In this document: piece after piece, positions 342 through 25,450 of the stretch
How the letters are laid out: each line of letters starts with the position of its first letter
Position numbering within the stretch: position 1 is the stretch's first letter
Source of the DNA: a virus
Strand: one strand, 5' to 3'
Length of the DNA stretch: 25,971 bases
IMG/VR virus record: IMGVR_UViG_3300022833_000044
Span: 1 to 25,971 of that record
The notes under the pieces: model-generated
What the model saw: only the letters and a program-made list of their open reading frames with translations
Database searches by the model: none
What the model was told of the DNA's origin: nothing
Position numbers and translations under genes: made by a program

Positions 342-949
342 ATAACAGTCGTTGGCATAGTCGCCGCAGTAGAATTTGTTGAGCTAGAGTCATTTTTCAA
401 TATGCCCAACTGTATTTTAAGCGCTGTCATAAAAGTGTCGTGTTTTTCTTTAATTACGTTTAATGCAATCGTATCTTTAGCTATTTCAACAGCGCTTGAC
501 ACTGTTAACCTGTTATTTCGTAGTTCGGCTTGAGCAATTCGCCAAGCTGTCGCCGCCGCCAAAATTGTGTCGCAAGCTACAGCAGCAGTAATAATCACAC
601 CCTTAGCCGCTTTTGAGTTAACTTCAGATTGCACACTGCCCGGTATTGGTGTGTTTAAATAGCCAGATGCTTTGTATTCGGATGCTTCCTGTTCTGCAAG
701 CTCATACTCACTAACTAAACCTTGTAGAACTTGTTGAGTAACTTCACCCGCTTCGGACTTAACTCGTGCAATAAGCTCAGCTTTTTCTGTTTCCAAATTA
801 CGAAAATTTTTAACAATTACCGCGCCCGTCCATACATCGCCAATTACCCCCCCAATGGATGCGTCTATCAAGTTCGGAAAAACATCCAGCGAATTTACTA
901 CAATAGTGTTTATGATGCTGCCGTTAGCATCTAGTTGATGTGCGTTCAT
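338..949 (-). CDS. Putative tail-fibre-associated protein
   Basis: 203 aa. The start ATG overlaps the tail fibre stop (ATGA at 946-949), with AGGGG five bases upstream. The N-terminus (residues 5-45) has the pattern QLDANGSIINTIVVNSLD ... IGDVWTG, which resembles the short N-terminal module of many fibre assembly or fibre-attached proteins (xLDxxGxVxNVIVxDSL...IGDxWDG). The middle (about 55-110) is charged and probably helical. Residues about 112-140 (AKGVIITAAVACDTILAAATAW) are hydrophobic enough to be a membrane span or a buried helix. The C-terminus is Ser/Thr-rich. The position just after the fibre gene fits a chaperone or a bound distal protein. I do not recognise the C-terminal two thirds, so the role is inferred. 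Confidence 0.7.
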   Translation of the reverse strand: MNAHQLDANGSIINTIVVNSLDVFPNLIDASIGGVIGDVWTGAVIVKNFRNLETEKAELIARVKSEAGEVTQQVLQGLVSEYELAEQEASEYKASGYLNTPIPGSVQSEVNSKAAKGVIITAAVACDTILAAATAWRIAQAELRNNRLTVSSAVEIAKDTIALNVIKEKHDTFMTALKIQLGILKNDSSSTNSTAATMPTTVI

Positions 950-3927
950 GCGATCCCCTGTATTCTTACTTCACCACGGCCACCAGCGCCGCCACTGCCA
1001 GAGTAGGCTTCTGTAATATAGTAGCCATAGCAGCAACCGCCACCTCCACCGCCTCCGTTAACTCCACCCGCCCCGCCGTTTCCCGCCGATGCTTGATATG
1101 CAGAACCGCCTCCACCTCCGCCAAACCTAAAACTTAGGCCATCACCACCATTAGTCCCCGGTGTTGTCCCTGTTCCCACAGCGCCTCCGCTACCGCCACC
1201 GCCTTGATTTATTTTAGAGCCACCAGCGCCTCCGCTTCGATCGGTAGGTCGTCCCCCGCCGCCGCCACCTGCTGCGCCACTAACAAACGAACCGTATCCT
1301 ACATAACCATTCGCATTGGCATAGTTGATTTGTCCACCAGCGCCACCGTTGCTAAGCTCTGCCTTAGTGCTAGAAGAATTCGTTGTTAAAATAACACCAC
1401 CCCCTAGCCCACCAGTCGCAGAAGCACTTAATTGACCGCCGCCGCCACCAACGCCAGAGTAGGCTGTTACAAGAGAGCCAAAGGTTGTAGTTCCGCCAGT
1501 GCCACCACTAACTCCCGGTGTAGTAGGGTCATTCCCACCCGCCGCACCAGTTCCACCAGCGCCCACGGTGACAACTTCAGACAAAGAAATTTCAGACGCT
1601 AGTAAAAGGCGTGAAATGTAGCTCCCACCACCACCACTTGCGCCGCCAGACTGATTAGTGCCGGAGCCCATTTTCCGACCACTGCCGCCACCTCCACCAG
1701 CGCCGAATGCGTCAATCATAAACTGCGTGTATCCGGGTGGCTTCGTAAACGTACCGCTAGTAGTAAACGCCCGATAAAATGCATTTAGTACAATCGATTG
1801 CAAGCCCGTACCGTCACATTGCACTAGCCGAACCTCATTAGGGTACATAATGTAGCTGGTCAAGCCGTCAATCGTCTCAGCGCCATCCGGGTCAAGTGTA
1901 ATATCACCAGTACCTGAGTTGCGGATATACAACCACCAACCAGAAGCAAGTGTTGCAGCAGCGGTGAAGGTTTGGCTGAATGTGCCGCTGGTAATGTCAA
2001 TCAGCGTACCTTGGTCTGCACCAGCAAGGATTGTGTTTGAAGTTCTAGCTGAACGGACTACTGATGCGACTGATGATGCTGGAGCTTCCCACGTACCGTC
2101 GCCTGCCGCGTCTGAGATAAGCTGATACCCCACCCCAGCACCTGTAGTGATTTTCACCGCAGTCATTGTCTGCTTGTCGGTGAAAGTGTTAGCCGCTGTG
2201 GATGCAACTGTTGTGCCGATGTCAGCGTCCACTAAGATAGTGGCATCGTAGGCTTGAACCGTTGAGCCGATGTCAGCATCGTTAAGAAGGGTAGCATCGT
2301 AGGCTTGTACTGTTGTACCAATGTCAGCAGATTGCAATGCTGAATCAGCAAGCGCACCTTGCGCGGCCGTGGCGTAGTCGCCGCTTGCAGTCGTCGCCGC
2401 AGTGCCCAAGCCCAGGTTTGTCCTAGCGGTTATAGCATTTGTCAGGTCAGACAAATTATTGGCCGCAACCATATAACCCTCTGCTGAGATATATGCTGCG
2501 GTCCAGGCACTGCCAGTATAAACTTTCATAGCGTCGGCGCTAGTATCGAAATACAAATCGCCTGCTTGCAATGCCGAGCTGTCAGCCCTGGTCGTTGGAT
2601 CGGAGGCAGATGGTCCGATGTAGACGTCAGCAAAGTTGGTAATGTCTGCCACGTTTGTGGCCGCCGTCGAGATCGCTGAAGAAATTCCAGCAACCGTTGT
2701 TACGTTAGCGCTGATGCCCGCGACAGTACCTATGTTGGCGCTGATGCCTGCGACAGTGGTGACGTTGGCGCTGATGCCCGCTACAGTGTTGACGTTGGTA
2801 GCGTTGCTATTAACAGCTGACACCGCTGAAGATATGGTGTTGACGCCAGTCACCGCCGCGCTAATTCCTGCTACCGCAGTAACGTTGGCGGCGATACCGG
2901 CGACTGTCGTAACGTTTGCCGCAATGTTTTCTACAGCGACAACGTCAGCGGAGATTCCCGCCACAGCCGTTACGTCAGCGGCAACCCCGGCAACAGCGGC
3001 CAGGTCGTCAGCGTCTACACCGGCAACCGCTGTAACATCAGTTGCGATACCAGCAACAGTGGCTACATTGGCGGCAATCGCAGCGACAGCTCCGATAGTA
3101 TTGCTACCGGCCAAGTCAGTGGCTACGGTCCCAATATCAGTGGCGTCTCCCGCTACAGCTGTAACGTCAGTCGAGATTCCCGCAACCGTCGTAACGTTTG
3201 CCGCGATGCCAGCCACAGTGCCGACTGTGTCGCTACCCGCCAGGTCGGTAGCCACCGTGTTTATGTTTGTTGCGTTACTGTTTACAGCAGAAACCGCAGA
3301 GCTAATTGCCGACACGCCCGACACGGCGGAGCTGATGCCAGCCACCGTCGTCACGTTTGCGGAGACACCGGCCACCGTTGTAACGTTTGCGGCAATGGCG
3401 GAAACAATCACAATCTCGTCGGCGATAGCAGAAATCTCGGTGATCTCTACAGCCGTTGCACCAGGCAGTGGGTTACCGCTGGCATCAAACGCCAGGTACT
3501 TGTTCGCTCGATCTGTTGCTCTAGGCAAAACCATGTTGATCGATGTGGGGTCTGTCTGGGGCGCTTGCAGTGACCTGGCCAGGCCCTCGGCGTTCTGCTG
3601 CGCAAAGATGGTTTGCTGGTCCAGCTCATCATTAACTGTGTTAGCAAAAAAATCTCCGCCGGTCACAAAGTCACTGGTTCGCTCAATTGTCCGATTGCCT
3701 ACGATCGCAATTTGAGTGGCGCCAACTGGGGATGTGACCAGGCTGATTGACCCGGTGCCGTTGTCCGCAATAGTGACTGAGTAATCTGTCGTCAGGGTTA
3801 AGAGCGTGTCGTCCTTGTACACTGCGATGTCAGTGTTCGCTAGTATCTCAAACGTAAAAGCATACGGGCCCGTGCCGGACGCCGCATAGACTACCCGTCG
3901 TGGTACGTTGTTAATTGGGACGCTCAT
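946..3927 (-). CDS. Tail fibre protein with repeat shaft and Gly-rich tip
   Basis: 993 aa, receptor-binding fibre. Residues 1-155 resemble the T7 gp17-type N-terminal attachment domain (start MSVPINNVPRRVVY; NRTIERTSDF; LDQQTIFAQQNAEGLARSLQ), which fixes the fibre to the tail. About 165-435 is a run of ten-residue repeats of the type VTTVAGISAN. About 435-480 is a small module ending GDLYFDTSADAMKVYTGSAW, seen in many fibres. About 490-600 has TNLGLGTAA and repeated VQAYDATL units. About 630-745 is a beta-rich region before the tip. From about 750 (FTTSGTFTKPPGYTQFMIDA) to the end the protein is a Gly-rich domain with many GGGG runs. GAGG lies eight bases before the ATG, after a 38-base gap. 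The Gly-rich end probably contacts the host. Confidence 0.9.
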   Translation of the reverse strand: MSVPINNVPRRVVYAASGTGPYAFTFEILANTDIAVYKDDTLLTLTTDYSVTIADNGTGSISLVTSPVGATQIAIVGNRTIERTSDFVTGGDFFANTVNDELDQQTIFAQQNAEGLARSLQAPQTDPTSINMVLPRATDRANKYLAFDASGNPLPGATAVEITEISAIADEIVIVSAIAANVTTVAGVSANVTTVAGISSAVSGVSAISSAVSAVNSNATNINTVATDLAGSDTVGTVAGIAANVTTVAGISTDVTAVAGDATDIGTVATDLAGSNTIGAVAAIAANVATVAGIATDVTAVAGVDADDLAAVAGVAADVTAVAGISADVVAVENIAANVTTVAGIAANVTAVAGISAAVTGVNTISSAVSAVNSNATNVNTVAGISANVTTVAGISANIGTVAGISANVTTVAGISSAISTAATNVADITNFADVYIGPSASDPTTRADSSALQAGDLYFDTSADAMKVYTGSAWTAAYISAEGYMVAANNLSDLTNAITARTNLGLGTAATTASGDYATAAQGALADSALQSADIGTTVQAYDATLLNDADIGSTVQAYDATILVDADIGTTVASTAANTFTDKQTMTAVKITTGAGVGYQLISDAAGDGTWEAPASSVASVVRSARTSNTILAGADQGTLIDITSGTFSQTFTAAATLASGWWLYIRNSGTGDITLDPDGAETIDGLTSYIMYPNEVRLVQCDGTGLQSIVLNAFYRAFTTSGTFTKPPGYTQFMIDAFGAGGGGGSGRKMGSGTNQSGGASGGGGSYISRLLLASEISLSEVVTVGAGGTGAAGGNDPTTPGVSGGTGGTTTFGSLVTAYSGVGGGGGQLSASATGGLGGGVILTTNSSSTKAELSNGGAGGQINYANANGYVGYGSFVSGAAGGGGGGRPTDRSGGAGGSKINQGGGGSGGAVGTGTTPGTNGGDGLSFRFGGGGGGSAYQASAGNGGAGGVNGGGGGGGCCYGYYITEAYSGSGGAGGRGEVRIQGIA
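2630..3440 (-). repeat. Tandem 30-bp repeats encoding about 25 decapeptides in the fibre shaft
   Basis: Degenerate 30-bp units encode copies of (V/I)xTVAGI(S/A)(A/T)(N/D)V. A second longer unit (AISSAVSAVNSNATN(I/V)NTVA) occurs twice, near 3240-3310 and 2785-2850, and TDIGTVATDLAGSNT-like blocks also recur, so the array seems to have grown by duplication of larger blocks. Repeats of this type form long fibrous shafts in trimeric adhesins and fibres. Recombination between units could change shaft length. Confidence 0.85.
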
Positions 3928-19970: not shown

Positions 19971-19987
19971 GATATCTGTTTGATATC
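19971..19987. repeat. Short inverted repeat GATATC-n5-GATATC in the terminase/GNAT gap
   Basis: Two copies of the palindrome GATATC separated by TGTTT, overlapping the terminase stop codon, at one end of a 57-base AT-rich gap. It could be a small hairpin or a protein-binding site. The gap has a poor promoter-like TTGTTT but no good -10. Confidence 0.35.
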
Positions 19988-21539
19988 ACCCGAATATATC
20001 AAAGTCAGTATTTGCCATAGTCTGCAGTGGCTGACGCCCGCCAAGCTGTGGGGTTTTAGTCATGCGGTTGTACTCACCGCCGCCTAGCATTAGATATCCG
20101 TACGAATCTCCGATGTGTGAGTGCTCGTTCTTGTTTGGCGCGTCTCGAAACCGCTCTTGCCCAGCCCCAACCGCAATGCGCTTAAAGTGATATCCGCCGC
20201 CCAGCGCTTTACGCAGTAGTTTGCACTCACGGTTAATCATCAACCCAGGCTTGCCGTTGATTAGCCTAGACATCGGGGCAGCCGCAGCCTCACGCCGGAC
20301 CTTAAAATCGTTTGACGCGGTAGGTTGCGCCCGGAGACCCAGAGTTCGCAAGAACTCAAACGCAGTCACCTCGTAGATAGCGTCTCTGGCCTGGCCAGCC
20401 GGGTCACCCCAGACGTATACCTGGTGATTCGGGTAGCGGGTGTTTAACTCTGTTAGTAATTGTGTGCCAAAACGCTCTAGACCCATGTCGGTGGTCACGA
20501 TTTCAGCGTGGATGACCCACTGGCCGGAGGGCAGCCGCTGGCCGATGGTGGCCGCAGGCGTCAGACCAAAGTCAAGACCGATCTGAATGGCGACAGTAGG
20601 GTCGACAATAGTGTCGCCGGACATAATCGAGTCGTCATATTCCGGCCAGACAGACCTCCCCTCTTGGACGTAGGTGTATTCGCCCTTGGCGTAGCAGCGT
20701 ATCCAGTCTAGGGTTTTCCCTAGCAGCATCTGTGGGTAGTAACCAGGAGGCAGGTTGCCCAGATTCTCCGCTTTGGGGTTAATCTTCCACCACTTGCCAG
20801 CCGAAAAGATGTGGTCGTTGGCCTCCGGCATCTCCGGTAGATCGTCAACGTCTACCGACACTATGCCACCGGGCTGCTTCCAAAACTTCCAGGCGTACTT
20901 GCCGGTCATCTTCTCTTTCTCCGCCATCCGGTGCCACCAGTGGTCGTCGTCCATCGGGTTGCTGTCCATCCAAATGCCGTGCCAAGTAGCGCCGCCGTCC
21001 CGCTTAGTCGGGTATCGGCCAACCCGGTGGGTCAACCCATCGATCACCGCCTTGGGCAACTCGCGCGCCTCGTTGACCCAGGCACCGGTCAGCTCCAAAG
21101 ACAGCAGCTTGCGCACATCTTTAGGCTGATCAAGGGCCAAAAAGATCACCTCGCAGTCGATGCCAGACGCGTCGCCCCTGGCGGGCAACCGAATATGGTG
21201 CGTAATGGGTGGTGTCCACATCATCGGCCCAAACGTGGCCTCGGGGAACAGGTCCAACCAGGTCTTAATCGTCGTGGTCTTCAGCATAGGGTAGCTGTTC
21301 CGCACAATTGCCCACCTGGTGTATCGGATGCCGTCCACGGGGGATGGCTTTTGCTCCACCGCCTTCTTCATAATCTTGGCCGCGCAAGCGTAAGACTTGC
21401 CAGAACCCACCGGGCCCATCAAGCCCTGCACAAACGCATCAGATTGAAAGTAATCGTACACCACGGGGCTAGACCTGAAGTCCAGGTTTAAACCCTCAGA
21501 TGGTATTTCTCTTTGACTCTGCTCTTTAGTCTTGGTCAT
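19986..21539 (-). CDS. terL: Terminase large subunit
   Basis: 517 aa; ATPase-nuclease motor that packs DNA through the portal. Start coupled to the small subunit stop by TAATG. Walker A GPVGSGKSY at residues 42-50; Walker B region LSLELTGAWVNEARE at 146-160 with the catalytic Glu at 157; coupling motif around DSNPMD (192-197). The RNase H-fold nuclease begins at GLDFGLTPAA (Asp323), continues with VWGDPAGQ (Asp379) and ends at HSHIGDSYGYL (Asp478). All key residues are present, so it should be active. It differs in order from T7, where terminase genes come last. Whether packaging is by cos, pac or terminal repeats cannot be told from the motifs. Confidence 0.95.
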   Translation of the reverse strand: MTKTKEQSQREIPSEGLNLDFRSSPVVYDYFQSDAFVQGLMGPVGSGKSYACAAKIMKKAVEQKPSPVDGIRYTRWAIVRNSYPMLKTTTIKTWLDLFPEATFGPMMWTPPITHHIRLPARGDASGIDCEVIFLALDQPKDVRKLLSLELTGAWVNEARELPKAVIDGLTHRVGRYPTKRDGGATWHGIWMDSNPMDDDHWWHRMAEKEKMTGKYAWKFWKQPGGIVSVDVDDLPEMPEANDHIFSAGKWWKINPKAENLGNLPPGYYPQMLLGKTLDWIRCYAKGEYTYVQEGRSVWPEYDDSIMSGDTIVDPTVAIQIGLDFGLTPAATIGQRLPSGQWVIHAEIVTTDMGLERFGTQLLTELNTRYPNHQVYVWGDPAGQARDAIYEVTAFEFLRTLGLRAQPTASNDFKVRREAAAAPMSRLINGKPGLMINRECKLLRKALGGGYHFKRIAVGAGQERFRDAPNKNEHSHIGDSYGYLMLGGGEYNRMTKTPQLGGRQPLQTMANTDFDIFG

Positions 21540-22003
21540 TAGCTACTTTCTTTGTCTTCAGGGCCAATATCGATCACATCGCCGCGCCCGCTTGAGGTAT
21601 CCGGCGCGTGTACGTTAATGCCAATCACAGACGGCTTGTCCGACTCCTCCGGCGTGTCCAGCAAACCGCTCGCTTTGGCCAAGATGCGCAGCACCCCCAC
21701 CTTGTCGTACAGCTCCAGGTCCAGCGTGCTGTTCCCGTCCCGGTCAACCCGCACCTTAATGCTCTTGATCGACGTCAAGGCGTGCTCCGGTATCTGATTG
21801 CTGGGCTTTACCTTGACGTTGCCGTCCTCGCCCCAAGTCATTATGTCTGTGATCTTCGTGTTAGCCATGCAAAGCAGCGCATAGCTGACAGCCTCTCGGT
21901 TGCCAGCCAGCGTCGCCGAGCGCTCCAGACGACGCTCAATCGAGCGCGTCCCACCCCAGCCTGCCACACTGGGAATTTGTCGGGGCGTTCTCTTCGTTGC
22001 CAT
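21539..22003 (-). CDS. terS: Terminase small subunit
   Basis: 154 aa from the ATG at 22003. An upstream TTG would extend it by 13 residues, but those codons overlie a well-supported 49-aa gene whose stop overlaps this ATG (TGATG), and there is no separate ribosome site, so translation is probably coupled. Central region PEHALTSIKSIKVRVDRDGN and LELYDKVGVLRILAKASGLL (about 76-120) is the usual terminase small subunit pattern; the C-terminus is acidic, fitting contact with the large subunit. Recognises phage DNA for packaging. Adjacent to terL as expected. Confidence 0.85.
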   Translation of the reverse strand: MATKRTPRQIPSVAGWGGTRSIERRLERSATLAGNREAVSYALLCMANTKITDIMTWGEDGNVKVKPSNQIPEHALTSIKSIKVRVDRDGNSTLDLELYDKVGVLRILAKASGLLDTPEESDKPSVIGINVHAPDTSSGRGDVIDIGPEDKESS

Positions 22004-22152
22004 CAATAGCAGTTGGTGTTGCAGTTGCCGTAATAGCAGCAAGTTGTACAGGATATGTATTTACCGTTGACGTTGTAGGTGTGAGTACTGCAAGCAGCAA
22101 ACACCGACGTATTAGCCGCCAAAACTAAAATAAAAGCAATTAGGTTTCTCAT
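22003..22152 (-). CDS. Secreted six-cysteine mini-protein
   Basis: 49 aa. Very good ribosome site (AAGGAG, eight bases before the ATG), 12 bases after the upstream stop, and TGATG overlap with the small terminase. Residues 1-19 (MRNLIAFILVLAANTSVFA) are a classical signal peptide: Arg2, hydrophobic core, V-F-A cleavage site; alternatively FAAC could act as a weak lipobox. The mature 30 residues hold six Cys (21, 35, 38, 39, 44, 47) plus many Tyr/Asn/Thr, ending CYYGNCNTNCY, so three disulfides are likely in the periplasm. I know no family. Possible roles: superinfection exclusion, lysis timing, or host envelope modification. Position inside a packaging operon is unexpected. Confidence 0.8.
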   Translation of the reverse strand: MRNLIAFILVLAANTSVFAACSTHTYNVNGKYISCTTCCYYGNCNTNCY

Positions 22153-22164
22153 CTCTGTGTCTCC

Positions 22165-22452
22165 TTAAAAAGGGATGTCGTCGTCAAGATCGGGAGCCGC
22201 CGGAGTAATCGGGGCTGACCTGGGCTCGTTGTACGAGCTCGGCTGGTTGCTGCGGCCAGCTTGAACCACCAAATCACCAACAGATAGGCTAATCCACTTT
22301 TCGCCAGAGCTGGTCACCTTGGTCCAAGCCGATACCCAACGCACCTCACCGTTGGGCAACATGATCTTGCCTTTAAGGTTCGGGTGGTTGTCCGTAGTCT
22401 TTTTATCATTCTTAAACAGCGAGCCGCTGCCTGGTCTCATCTCATAAGCCAT
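22165..22452 (-). CDS. DUF736-like protein with SSB-type acidic tail
   Basis: 95 aa; AAAGGAG six to seven bases before the ATG. Residues 1-65 have GSLFKNDKKTTDNHPNLKGK and VRWVSAWTKVTSSGEKWISLSVGD, the pattern of small OB-like DUF736 proteins. The end, DLDDDIPF, is very close to the C-terminal tip of bacterial single-stranded DNA-binding proteins (DDDIPF), which recruits replication partners. A phage ssDNA-binding or replication-accessory role is therefore plausible. The tail may mimic host SSB to attract host enzymes. Lies just upstream of the secreted peptide and terminase genes. Confidence 0.75.
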   Translation of the reverse strand: MAYEMRPGSGSLFKNDKKTTDNHPNLKGKIMLPNGEVRWVSAWTKVTSSGEKWISLSVGDLVVQAGRSNQPSSYNEPRSAPITPAAPDLDDDIPF

Positions 22453-22514: not shown

Positions 22515-22560
22515 CCCCCCTACGCTACGGGCAGGGGGGGGAGGGGAAGGGTGTTTTTTT
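22515..22560. other. G-rich tract with quadruplex potential next to a C6/G8 inverted repeat and T7
   Basis: Plus strand: C6 at 22515-22520, GGG 22529-22531, G8 22534-22541, GGGG 22543-22546, GGG 22549-22551, T7 22554-22560. Four close G-runs meet the G-quadruplex pattern. C6 and G8 can also pair as a hairpin with a 13-base loop on either strand. Unlike any other part of the window. It lies at the 3' end of the 96-aa ORF. Confidence 0.7.
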
Positions 22561-24137: not shown

Positions 24138-24427
24138 AGCGCGGCCTGCTTGTTGTCAACCAGGACAATCTCTAGATTGCCTCTTGCAATGTCGAGGCCA
24201 AGAATGGCCCCCGAGTACGCCATGCCCGCGACAAAGCTGCACAGCAGTACCGCGCCAAAAAACTTACCCCATTCGTAAGCGCTGAGGTCAAACAGTGCCG
24301 CCATGTCTAAGTGTTTCGAAAATGGGTCTGGCATAGATGGGATTTCAATGTGTATTGGTGCCGCGCTGGCATCCATTACTCTGCGCACCGTCTTGTCGGT
24401 GCCAGCTAGTTGGGCTTCTAATGTCAT
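24134..24427 (-). CDS. Small membrane protein, possible holin-like
   Basis: 97 aa; the ATG overlaps the preceding stop (ATGA) with AGGAG just upstream. Residues 1-50 are polar (with PIHIEIPSMPDPFSKHLDM). About 51-80 is hydrophobic (WGKFFGAVLLCSFVAGMAYSG, AILGLDIA), one long or two short spans. The C-terminus is polar. No family recognised. Being in the operon of the SleB-like hydrolase makes it, with the next 46-aa gene, the best holin or antiholin candidate in the window; this is inference. Confidence 0.7.
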   Translation of the reverse strand: MTLEAQLAGTDKTVRRVMDASAAPIHIEIPSMPDPFSKHLDMAALFDLSAYEWGKFFGAVLLCSFVAGMAYSGAILGLDIARGNLEIVLVDNKQAAL

Positions 24428-24612
24428 GTGGTTTTCTCCTGCTTAAAAAGCGGTGCCCACTTAGTCCTGGGTTCAGCCGCGTGCTGCACATAGAAATGGA
24501 TCAAGTGATCAAACAACTGCACGTATGTCATACGCACTCCCGTTCTCTGTTGAATAAAGTCTCGGATTTTGTCAATGTCCTGGTTGACCTCAATTGTTAT
24601 TCTTTTTGCCAC
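24424..24612 (-). CDS. Small protein with ribbon-helix-helix pattern, GTG start
   Basis: 62 aa. The start is GTG with GGAG seven bases upstream, 23 bases inside the preceding gene. The sequence begins with a beta-strand pattern (AKRITIEVNQ), a helix (DIDKIRDFIQQRTG) and a second helix (TYVQLFDHLIHFYVQ), the order of Arc/MetJ-type DNA-binding dimers. The C-terminal tail is basic/polar. Likely a small regulator; no operator is identified. Could also be a non-DNA-binding small protein. Confidence 0.65.
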   Translation of the reverse strand: MAKRITIEVNQDIDKIRDFIQQRTGVRMTYVQLFDHLIHFYVQHAAEPRTKWAPLFKQEKTT

Positions 24613-24781
24613 TTAGTTTCTCCATTTTGAATCTAGCCCCGCCGTGCTCGGCAGCCTCAACCCTCTCTACAGTTGTGAACTTGTGCAGGTTCCCACACTC
24701 CAGTGTTCTGCGCCTGGTGTTGTCTTGCCGGGTGCGAGTCTCTAAGACAGTTGACCAGGCTTTGCATAAAGGGCAATTCAT
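24590..24781 (-). CDS. NrdR-like zinc ribbon without ATP-cone
   Basis: 63 aa; start overlaps the SleB stop (ATGA), with AGGAG seven to eight bases upstream. MNCPLCKAWSTVLETRTRQD, then RRRTLECGNLHKFTTVERV, closely parallels the N-terminal zinc ribbon of NrdR (CPxC...VxxSR...RRRxC..C..RFTTxE). The metal ligands are Cys3, Cys6, Cys29 and probably His33 in place of the fourth Cys. NrdR continues into an ATP-cone, absent here. Such lone ribbons are common in phages. It may bind DNA, perhaps to affect host nucleotide-reductase control; unproven. Confidence 0.75.
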   Translation of the reverse strand: MNCPLCKAWSTVLETRTRQDNTRRRTLECGNLHKFTTVERVEAAEHGGARFKMEKLSGKKNNN

Positions 24782-25221
24782 TTCTTTCTCCTCGGATATT
24801 TATAAAAAACATGAAAACCAATGACCTCTGTCATCTCAAGTCTGCCCGCCCACCTGGGGTAAACGGCCAGGGTATGGTAGTGCGTTGACTTTCGTGTGTT
24901 GTCCTTCAACCTACCTGCGATTGCCCTGGCCACAACCCGCTGCACCTTCTGTGTGTATGCCAACAGCATTGGATTTCGCGCCCTGTAATCGTTGGCCCAA
25001 CTGAACTGCTTGCTTTGATACACAACTTTGCAGATTGAATCTGGCCAGCGCTTGCTAGCGACCCTGTTTAAGACCACTGATGCTACTGCTCTGATGCCAG
25101 CCAGACTTTCGCCACGTGCCTCGTAATGCAGATTATCAGCCAGACATTTAGCTTGTTTAGAGTACGGCACAGCCGATGCCGCTGCAGGCAACATCAGCAA
25201 AGCCAGTAGTAGCTTAAGCAC
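24778..25221 (-). CDS. SleB-family cell-wall hydrolase, probable endolysin
   Basis: 147 aa if read from the GTG at 25221, eight bases inside the upstream gene. The frame stays open further upstream, to 25353, but that would bury 140 bases of the 78-aa gene, so the GTG is preferred; another GTG at 25233 is possible. Signal peptide LKLLLALLMLPAAASA ends near residue 17. The domain begins AKCLADNLHYEARGE (catalytic Glu at about residue 34), then GIRAVASVVLNRV, WPDSICKVVYQ, QFSWAND and HYHT, all typical of the SleB hydrolase domain (peptidoglycan hydrolase). A signal peptide means Sec export, so a classical large-hole holin may not be needed. Confidence 0.88.
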   Translation of the reverse strand: MLKLLLALLMLPAAASAVPYSKQAKCLADNLHYEARGESLAGIRAVASVVLNRVASKRWPDSICKVVYQSKQFSWANDYRARNPMLLAYTQKVQRVVARAIAGRLKDNTRKSTHYHTLAVYPRWAGRLEMTEVIGFHVFYKYPRRKK

Positions 25222-25450
25222 TGCCTCTTGCACGGATGGCTTTGGCACACCAAGTCGCCAGCACATCCTCGCCATCGTATTCGGTGTCAAGGTCATCACA
25301 CACCTTTGCACACGCCTCTCGTTCTGCCTCAATCTCTCTCTGCATATACTCAACCGTCACCGTGCCAAACTGGCTCGGCTGGTTCTCGGGGTCGGTGAAC
25401 AGTTGCATCATTGCCTCACGTGCCTTTTTGATAATGTCTTCTGTGGTCAT
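25214..25450 (-). CDS. Small charged phage protein
   Basis: 78 aa; the ATG overlaps the preceding stop (ATGA) with AAGGAG eight bases upstream. Helical with many acidic and basic residues (EYMQREIEAEREACAKVCDD), two Cys in ACAKVCDD and an end AKAIRARGSA. The pattern 'AEREACAKVCDDL ... WCAKAIRARG' is common in short phage ORFs of unknown function. It codes up to the GTG start of the hydrolase. Confidence 0.75.
   Translation of the reverse strand: MTTEDIIKKAREAMMQLFTDPENQPSQFGTVTVEYMQREIEAEREACAKVCDDLDTEYDGEDVLATWCAKAIRARGSA

Follow-up and report, generated by a model that had tools for sequence, protein, structure and literature searches.

A family of small six-cysteine peptides with predicted export signals, encoded by an accessory gene in phages of aquatic bacteria

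Phage T5 encodes Llp, a small protein of the periplasm that contains a structural disulfide (Cys11-Cys58) and blocks the receptor from inside (PMC9586334). The Rtp45 / Oekolampad SE lipoprotein, a periplasmic protein of about 6 kDa with a disulfide and a beta-hairpin, binds LptDE and also blocks the receptor from inside (PMC12685063). Here, we describe a family of phage peptides starting from a stretch of viral DNA of 25,971 bases, called the window in the following, a piece of a podophage-like genome with transcription mainly from the minus strand. Like Llp, the peptide is small, phage-encoded and, by prediction, periplasmic with structural disulfides, whereas Llp is lipid-anchored, has about 60 residues, is mentioned with one disulfide, and acts on a known target, FhuA. 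Rtp45 differs as well, being a lipoprotein with one disulfide, while three disulfides and a soluble mature form are predicted for our family. No sequence relation to T5 Llp was found in the libraries searched, and Llp, Cor, and Rtp45 were compared by description. A further likeness leads to insect viruses: the conotoxin-like ctl peptide of baculoviruses is also virus-encoded, small, and secreted and shares the Cys order C-C-CC-C-C with our family, but it belongs to a virus of insects and shows another Cys spacing.

The gene is located at 22003..22152 (-), stop codon included, and encodes a 49-aa precursor, which reads MRNLIAFILVLAANTSVFA for the signal peptide and ACSTHTYNVNGKYISCTTCCYYGNCNTNCY for the mature part. 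Residues 1-19 (22096..22152 (-)) form the signal peptide, for which the sequence and the AxA-type site kept across the family predict a signal peptidase I site between VFA and A. The mature peptide, residues 20-49 (22006..22095 (-)), displays six Cys within 30 aa, at positions 21, 35, 38, 39, 44, and 48. At 22160..22166 (-), overlapping the stop codon of ssb, lies the ribosome binding site AAGGAGA, whose predicted anti-SD energy of -9.2 kcal/mol ranks third when 29 candidate starts of the window are compared. A preliminary description of this DNA had singled out the ribosome site as one of the best in the window and had recognised a signal peptide as well as six Cys among the 30 mature residues; our analysis bears out all three. 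The window contains 75 ORFs of 30-80 aa that start with ATG, and only that of the peptide carries at least six Cys in its last 35 residues. A chance ORF is excluded, because a 42-member profile matched at least 502 contig stretches in IMG/VR (133 relatives had been found with a three-member profile), the amino acids are under purifying selection, and the cysteines are invariant.

The six-Cys pattern of the mature part was present in 108 of 108 distinct coding sequences, 107 of which scored with six Cys and one with seven, a Cys of the signal peptide having been taken as the start; the signal peptide of one relative, L167, does contain a Cys. In all members, the cysteines align in the order C-C-CC-C-C (21, 35, 38, 39, 44, 48), which is that of inhibitor cystine knots and conotoxins, within a mature consensus of roughly [ASN]C[ST]TH[TS]YxxNG[RK]xVTCTTCC(Y)xxNC[NT]T[NT]C[FY]. 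The comparison of synonymous and nonsynonymous change proposed in the preliminary description revealed pN/pS values for the mature part of 0.036 (pairs of >90% identity) and 0.119 (80-90% identity), and for the signal peptide of 0.13 and 0.20, respectively; these are simple pairwise Nei-Gojobori proportions from non-independent pairs, but their direction is clear. Purifying selection on the amino acids of the peptide is thus well supported by the sequences, and unselected changes breaking the signal peptide or the Cys pattern, named beforehand as evidence against the peptide, were not what we found, the Cys pattern being kept in all 108 genes under selection. For 77 of 79 distinct peptides, the SD energy is at least as good as -5 kcal/mol, a proportion somewhat favourable by construction, since the start chooser weighed SD strength among the candidate starts. 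The AxA site, six invariant Cys, pN/pS values far below 1, and these SDs lend strong support to the earlier idea of a phage peptide that is secreted and rich in disulfides, except for the tie to the terminase that came with it. We are highly confident that the gene is real, secreted, selected, and mobile.

AlphaFold2 modelled the precursor with a pLDDT of 71 (about 82 for the mature part) and the mature part alone with a pLDDT of 90.7 and a pTM of 0.41, showing strands at residues 2-9, 12-21, and 24-29. According to this model, the mature peptide is probably a beta-meander of three antiparallel strands, held together by three disulfides from strand to strand. The Cys pairing was derived from the strand limits of the model, in whose register two-residue turns at Asn29-Gly30 and 41-42 oppose Cys21-Cys38, Cys35-Cys48, and Cys39-Cys44; only 0.2% of random six-Cys placements paired perfectly in this register. 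The pairing implied by the model (1-3, 2-6, 4-5) differs from that of a cystine knot (1-4, 2-5, 3-6). Within the mature part, the second turn, between Cys39 and Cys44, is the only place with insertions (one or two residues), in agreement with the model, and the variable residues are found on the first hairpin and the second turn. The pattern of a strict Cys/Thr/Asn/His core and hairpin residues that vary suggests that the scaffold is fixed while residues on its strands adapt to a target. Fold searches of the PDB with both models yielded common beta-meanders only (best E about 0.8, VIA-align Z at most 3.5). A Thr-rich ice-binding protein was considered and rejected, the likeness being limited to TCTT motifs and the peptide being too short, and a redox or heme CxxCH motif was rejected since no CxxCH is present.

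Database comparisons provided few names. Pfam gave no match for the window peptide, and for the family, no informative sequence match was obtained from Pfam, NCBIfam, PHROGs, or the PDB; NCBIfam matches to MerP and lipoproteins were weak, scattered, and of the signal-peptide type. A weak likeness to phrog_17544, of unknown function (E 0.086 for the window protein, 0.005 at best among the members), spans residues 1-35, chiefly the signal peptide and the first hairpin, and does not allow a confident family assignment. PADLOC-DB revealed no match for 42 members, so that no known class of anti-phage defence was recognised. In UniProt, A0A6J5M8Q5 of an uncultured Caudovirales phage has 49 aa, 51% identity, and the same predicted fold (Foldseek E 4.7e-5), and it belongs to the six-Cys family. 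A tblastn search of INPHARED with the window peptide gave no match, and other members as query found two Manatee Spring phages only, or nothing. In both carriers, the peptide gene is unannotated and a CDS on the opposite strand was called instead, showing that gene callers can overlook it. Matches in the Burkholderia phages BcepSauron and BcepSaruman (E=2) were dismissed as chance, being antisense to the annotated SSB gene.

Outside viral contigs, the family is scarce. The three-member profile had no match in the 84,980 species genomes of GTDB, and a second scan of these bacterial and archaeal genomes found one divergent copy, MKKKLVVAAIAACASFAVWANCTTNTTWYNGRAVTCTTCCTGSYCNTNCY, on a 5.3-kb contig of a Burkholderiales MAG (L164, 3533-3685). 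This copy, flanked by a VIT/VWA-like protein and a WYL-type regulator, both named by reading their sequences, may be chromosomal. A set of 399 Burkholderiales genomes contained a full-length match in one genome and no further one, a partial match in G064 covering profile residues 1-38 (E 8e-4), and a search of plasmids found no family member. Our literature search met no paper on the family, though it may be included unnamed among the small phage genes catalogued by Fremin et al. 2022. This is a large, unnamed phage family, almost absent from bacterial genomes, whose carriers are viruses of aquatic bacteria: a near-invariant, apparently exported mini-protein present in hundreds of phage contigs and nameless in curated databases.

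The gene neighbourhoods were surveyed in 100 distinct loci with a crude gene-calling script, of which single rows are fallible while recurring classes were checked with PHROGs. The upstream gene was on the same strand in 84 of the loci. The commonest upstream neighbour was an SSB of the window type (15 loci); a canonical SSB adjoins in two more, and proteins with an SSB-like acidic tail, unconfirmed, in seven. A Cro-like regulator cluster lies upstream in 13 loci, and 17 loci have a primosomal O-like protein on the downstream side; RecE-like exonuclease, Erf-like annealing protein, RusA, NinB, and HNH nucleases were found nearby. In the nearest relatives, L167 (73% identical) and L206, the peptide gene ends a block of small genes, including DUF1289 and DUF3310 in L167; behind it come a terminator-like hairpin and a DNA polymerase gene in convergent orientation, which Pfam assigns to family A in L206. 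The peptide gene is an accessory, movable one-gene cassette residing mostly in recombination/replication modules of early type. At one locus (L155, 4305-5690), a 462-aa protein without a PHROG or Pfam match adjoins the peptide gene upstream of a different terminase large subunit.

The explanation that we tentatively prefer is an accessory soluble peptide that excludes rival phages. The cassette would insert between coupled genes, here ssb and terS, leaving the coupling intact, and its own strong ribosome site would drive synthesis of the peptide. After Sec export and cleavage by signal peptidase I behind VFA, the soluble peptide would fold in the periplasm as a beta-meander with the three disulfides given above. 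It would arrive there early in infection, which we infer from the usual position of the gene in recombination/replication or post-cro modules. It would then bind an envelope protein, most plausibly a receptor or a DNA-entry component, and further phages would be kept out as they are by T5 Llp or Rtp45. An effector acting on the envelope had been suggested before, and we infer the same; superinfection exclusion as its function, argued by analogy, is possible though doubtful. To our knowledge, a lipid anchor is found in exclusion proteins of comparable size, but the sequences of this family suggest a soluble peptide. Such proteins would also be expected to diversify with the receptor, yet high conservation of the mature part is seen in many phages, and a conserved host target accounts for it no less well than exclusion. 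With respect to timing, the position directly before terS in the window phage could mean late expression.

The main rival is an inhibitor of a conserved periplasmic or inner-membrane protein of the host, e.g., a protease, Dsb, or a component of Lpt or Bam, which would aid the phage's own replication or assembly. The very strong conservation of the mature core in many phages fits such a target, and compact disulfide-rich beta-sheets are common among protein inhibitors; but no sequence or fold match to inhibitor families was found, though short folds match poorly, and no reactive-site loop is obvious, the variable residues lying on the first hairpin and second turn instead. We regard this reading as rather unlikely. 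Conservation this strong, in many different phage modules, implies a common host target. In more general terms, it is plausible, though not quite probable, that the family represents a soluble triple-disulfide beta-sheet scaffold of 30 residues, reaching the periplasm early, exchanged as a cassette among phages of aquatic bacteria, and controlling a process of the host envelope, be it phage entry or some other conserved target, through a mechanism that differs from the known lipid-anchored exclusion proteins. The size of 30 residues permits direct synthesis and testing, and a disulfide-stapled scaffold active in the Gram-negative periplasm could reveal a new way in which phages control the cell envelope.

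A peptide released as a signal or antibacterial agent, in the manner of a pheromone or microcin, and acting on neighbouring cells appears improbable. Small size, a secreted type, three predicted disulfides, and the lack of an anchor would suit it, and the secreted peptide AimP of the arbitrium system, discussed in PMC11323111, is a precedent for phages. No receptor, immunity, or exporter gene, however, constantly adjoins the peptide gene in the 100 distinct loci, no outer-membrane export system was identified, and the net charge of the mature peptide is about 0 to +1. This charge likewise disagrees with a lysis helper weakening the outer membrane or joining the spanin step, as disruptins are cationic; spanins, moreover, possess a second transmembrane helix or a lipid anchor, neither of which is seen here. 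The predicted periplasmic location and the late-gene neighbours terS and terL in the window phage would agree with a lysis role, but most relatives carry the gene in recombination/replication-module or post-cro positions, and instead of a lysis cassette, genes for SSB, Erf, RecE, RusA, NinB, primosomal proteins, Cro, or the terminase adjoin it, making such a helper quite improbable.

Still less probable is a lipoprotein of the outer or inner membrane, as A0A6J5M8Q5 is labelled in UniProt. A-A precedes the first Cys in most members, which would suit a lipobox in addition to this name. Across the family, however, Cys1 is preceded by A, S, N, T, or Q, position -3 is aromatic, and the AxA site with its aromatic middle residue is conserved; by the established sequence rules for signal peptidase I and lipobox assignment, cleavage is therefore ascribed to signal peptidase I, which argues against the UniProt name. 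Besides, Cys21 is placed opposite Cys38 in the model. The lipobox with an acylated Cys, the hallmark of the Llp, Cor, and Rtp45 lipoproteins, was not found in the family, and for this reason, we do not place it among them. The predicted product of Sec export and cleavage after VFA is a soluble, periplasmic peptide of 30 residues. That the ORF is a mere coupling leader for terS, with a functionless peptide, is next to impossible: terS, which is without an SD, does appear to depend on the upstream stop codon, but selection acts on the amino acids, most relatives carry the gene away from terS, and in the sister phages, which lack it, terS is coupled to ssb.

Regarding this coupling, the preliminary description was right about a TGATG stop/start overlap between the peptide gene and terS (22001..22005 (-)). 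The small terminase gene terS (21539..22003 (-); Pfam PF03592, E=2e-4, below the curated cut-off) has no SD of its own (0.0 kcal/mol) and is followed by terL for the large subunit (19986..21539 (-); PF04466, E=8e-5, just below the curated cut-off), the product of which showed 73.7% to TerL of Methylophilales phage MEP301. Directly upstream of the peptide gene lies ssb (22165..22452 (-); PHROG 7364/18154). In the sister phages L010 and L011, with a TerL of 98% and 93%, respectively, there is no peptide gene between ssb and terS, and ssb is coupled straight to terS via TAATG in the former and TGATG in the latter, again with a terS SD of 0.0. In all three phages, terS thus appears from its sequence to rely on a stop/start overlap with whichever gene precedes it, and since the sisters couple ssb and terS without the peptide gene, the latter is seen as a cassette that brings its own ribosome site and leaves the coupling in place. 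MEP301 has no peptide gene between ssb and terS. It precedes terS in at least four TerL lineages, namely the window (100%), L230 (83.6%), L199 (72.8%), and L227 (72.7%). In other relatives (L012, L014, L015, L017, L020, L037, L057, L063, L083, and others), this place is filled by another small gene, which is unrelated and shows the motif GMTLRDYFAAKAMQ...ADAMLKAR (phrog_2201, function unknown), and the ssb-terS slot is an insertion hot spot for small genes.

The assignment to a packaging operon consequently holds for the window's phage group only, the peptide gene residing elsewhere mostly in recombination/replication modules. A peptide tied to the terminase is not borne out, as the gene is absent from sisters with 93-98% identical TerL and most relatives have neighbours other than terminase genes; the gene is linked to packaging only incidentally. 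Absence of the ORF from related phages had been named in advance as an argument against it, and L010 and L011 are literally such phages, yet they reveal an accessory gene and not a spurious one.

Further features of the window deserve mention. Between ssb and the gene upstream of it, a poly-G tract, GGCAGGGGGGGGAGGGGAAGGG (22530-22560 (+)), is a possible G-quadruplex or terminator-like element. The small gene MAKRITIEVNQDIDKIRDFIQQRTGVRMTYVQLFDHLIHFY is common to the window (24427-24612) and L167 (1418-1600) and has no Pfam match. At 24593-24781 (-), a small protein with a zinc ribbon, which matches Ogr/Delta and the N-terminus of NrdR, is possibly a transcription regulator. A SleB-type cell wall hydrolase (24778-25236 (-); PF07486, E 1e-25), a likely endolysin, sits among small genes upstream of the replication gene and not with the late structural genes. 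Finally, a 993-aa tail-fibre-like protein is encoded at 946-3927 (-), displaying many NVTTVAGISA-type repeats and a glycine-rich C-terminus.
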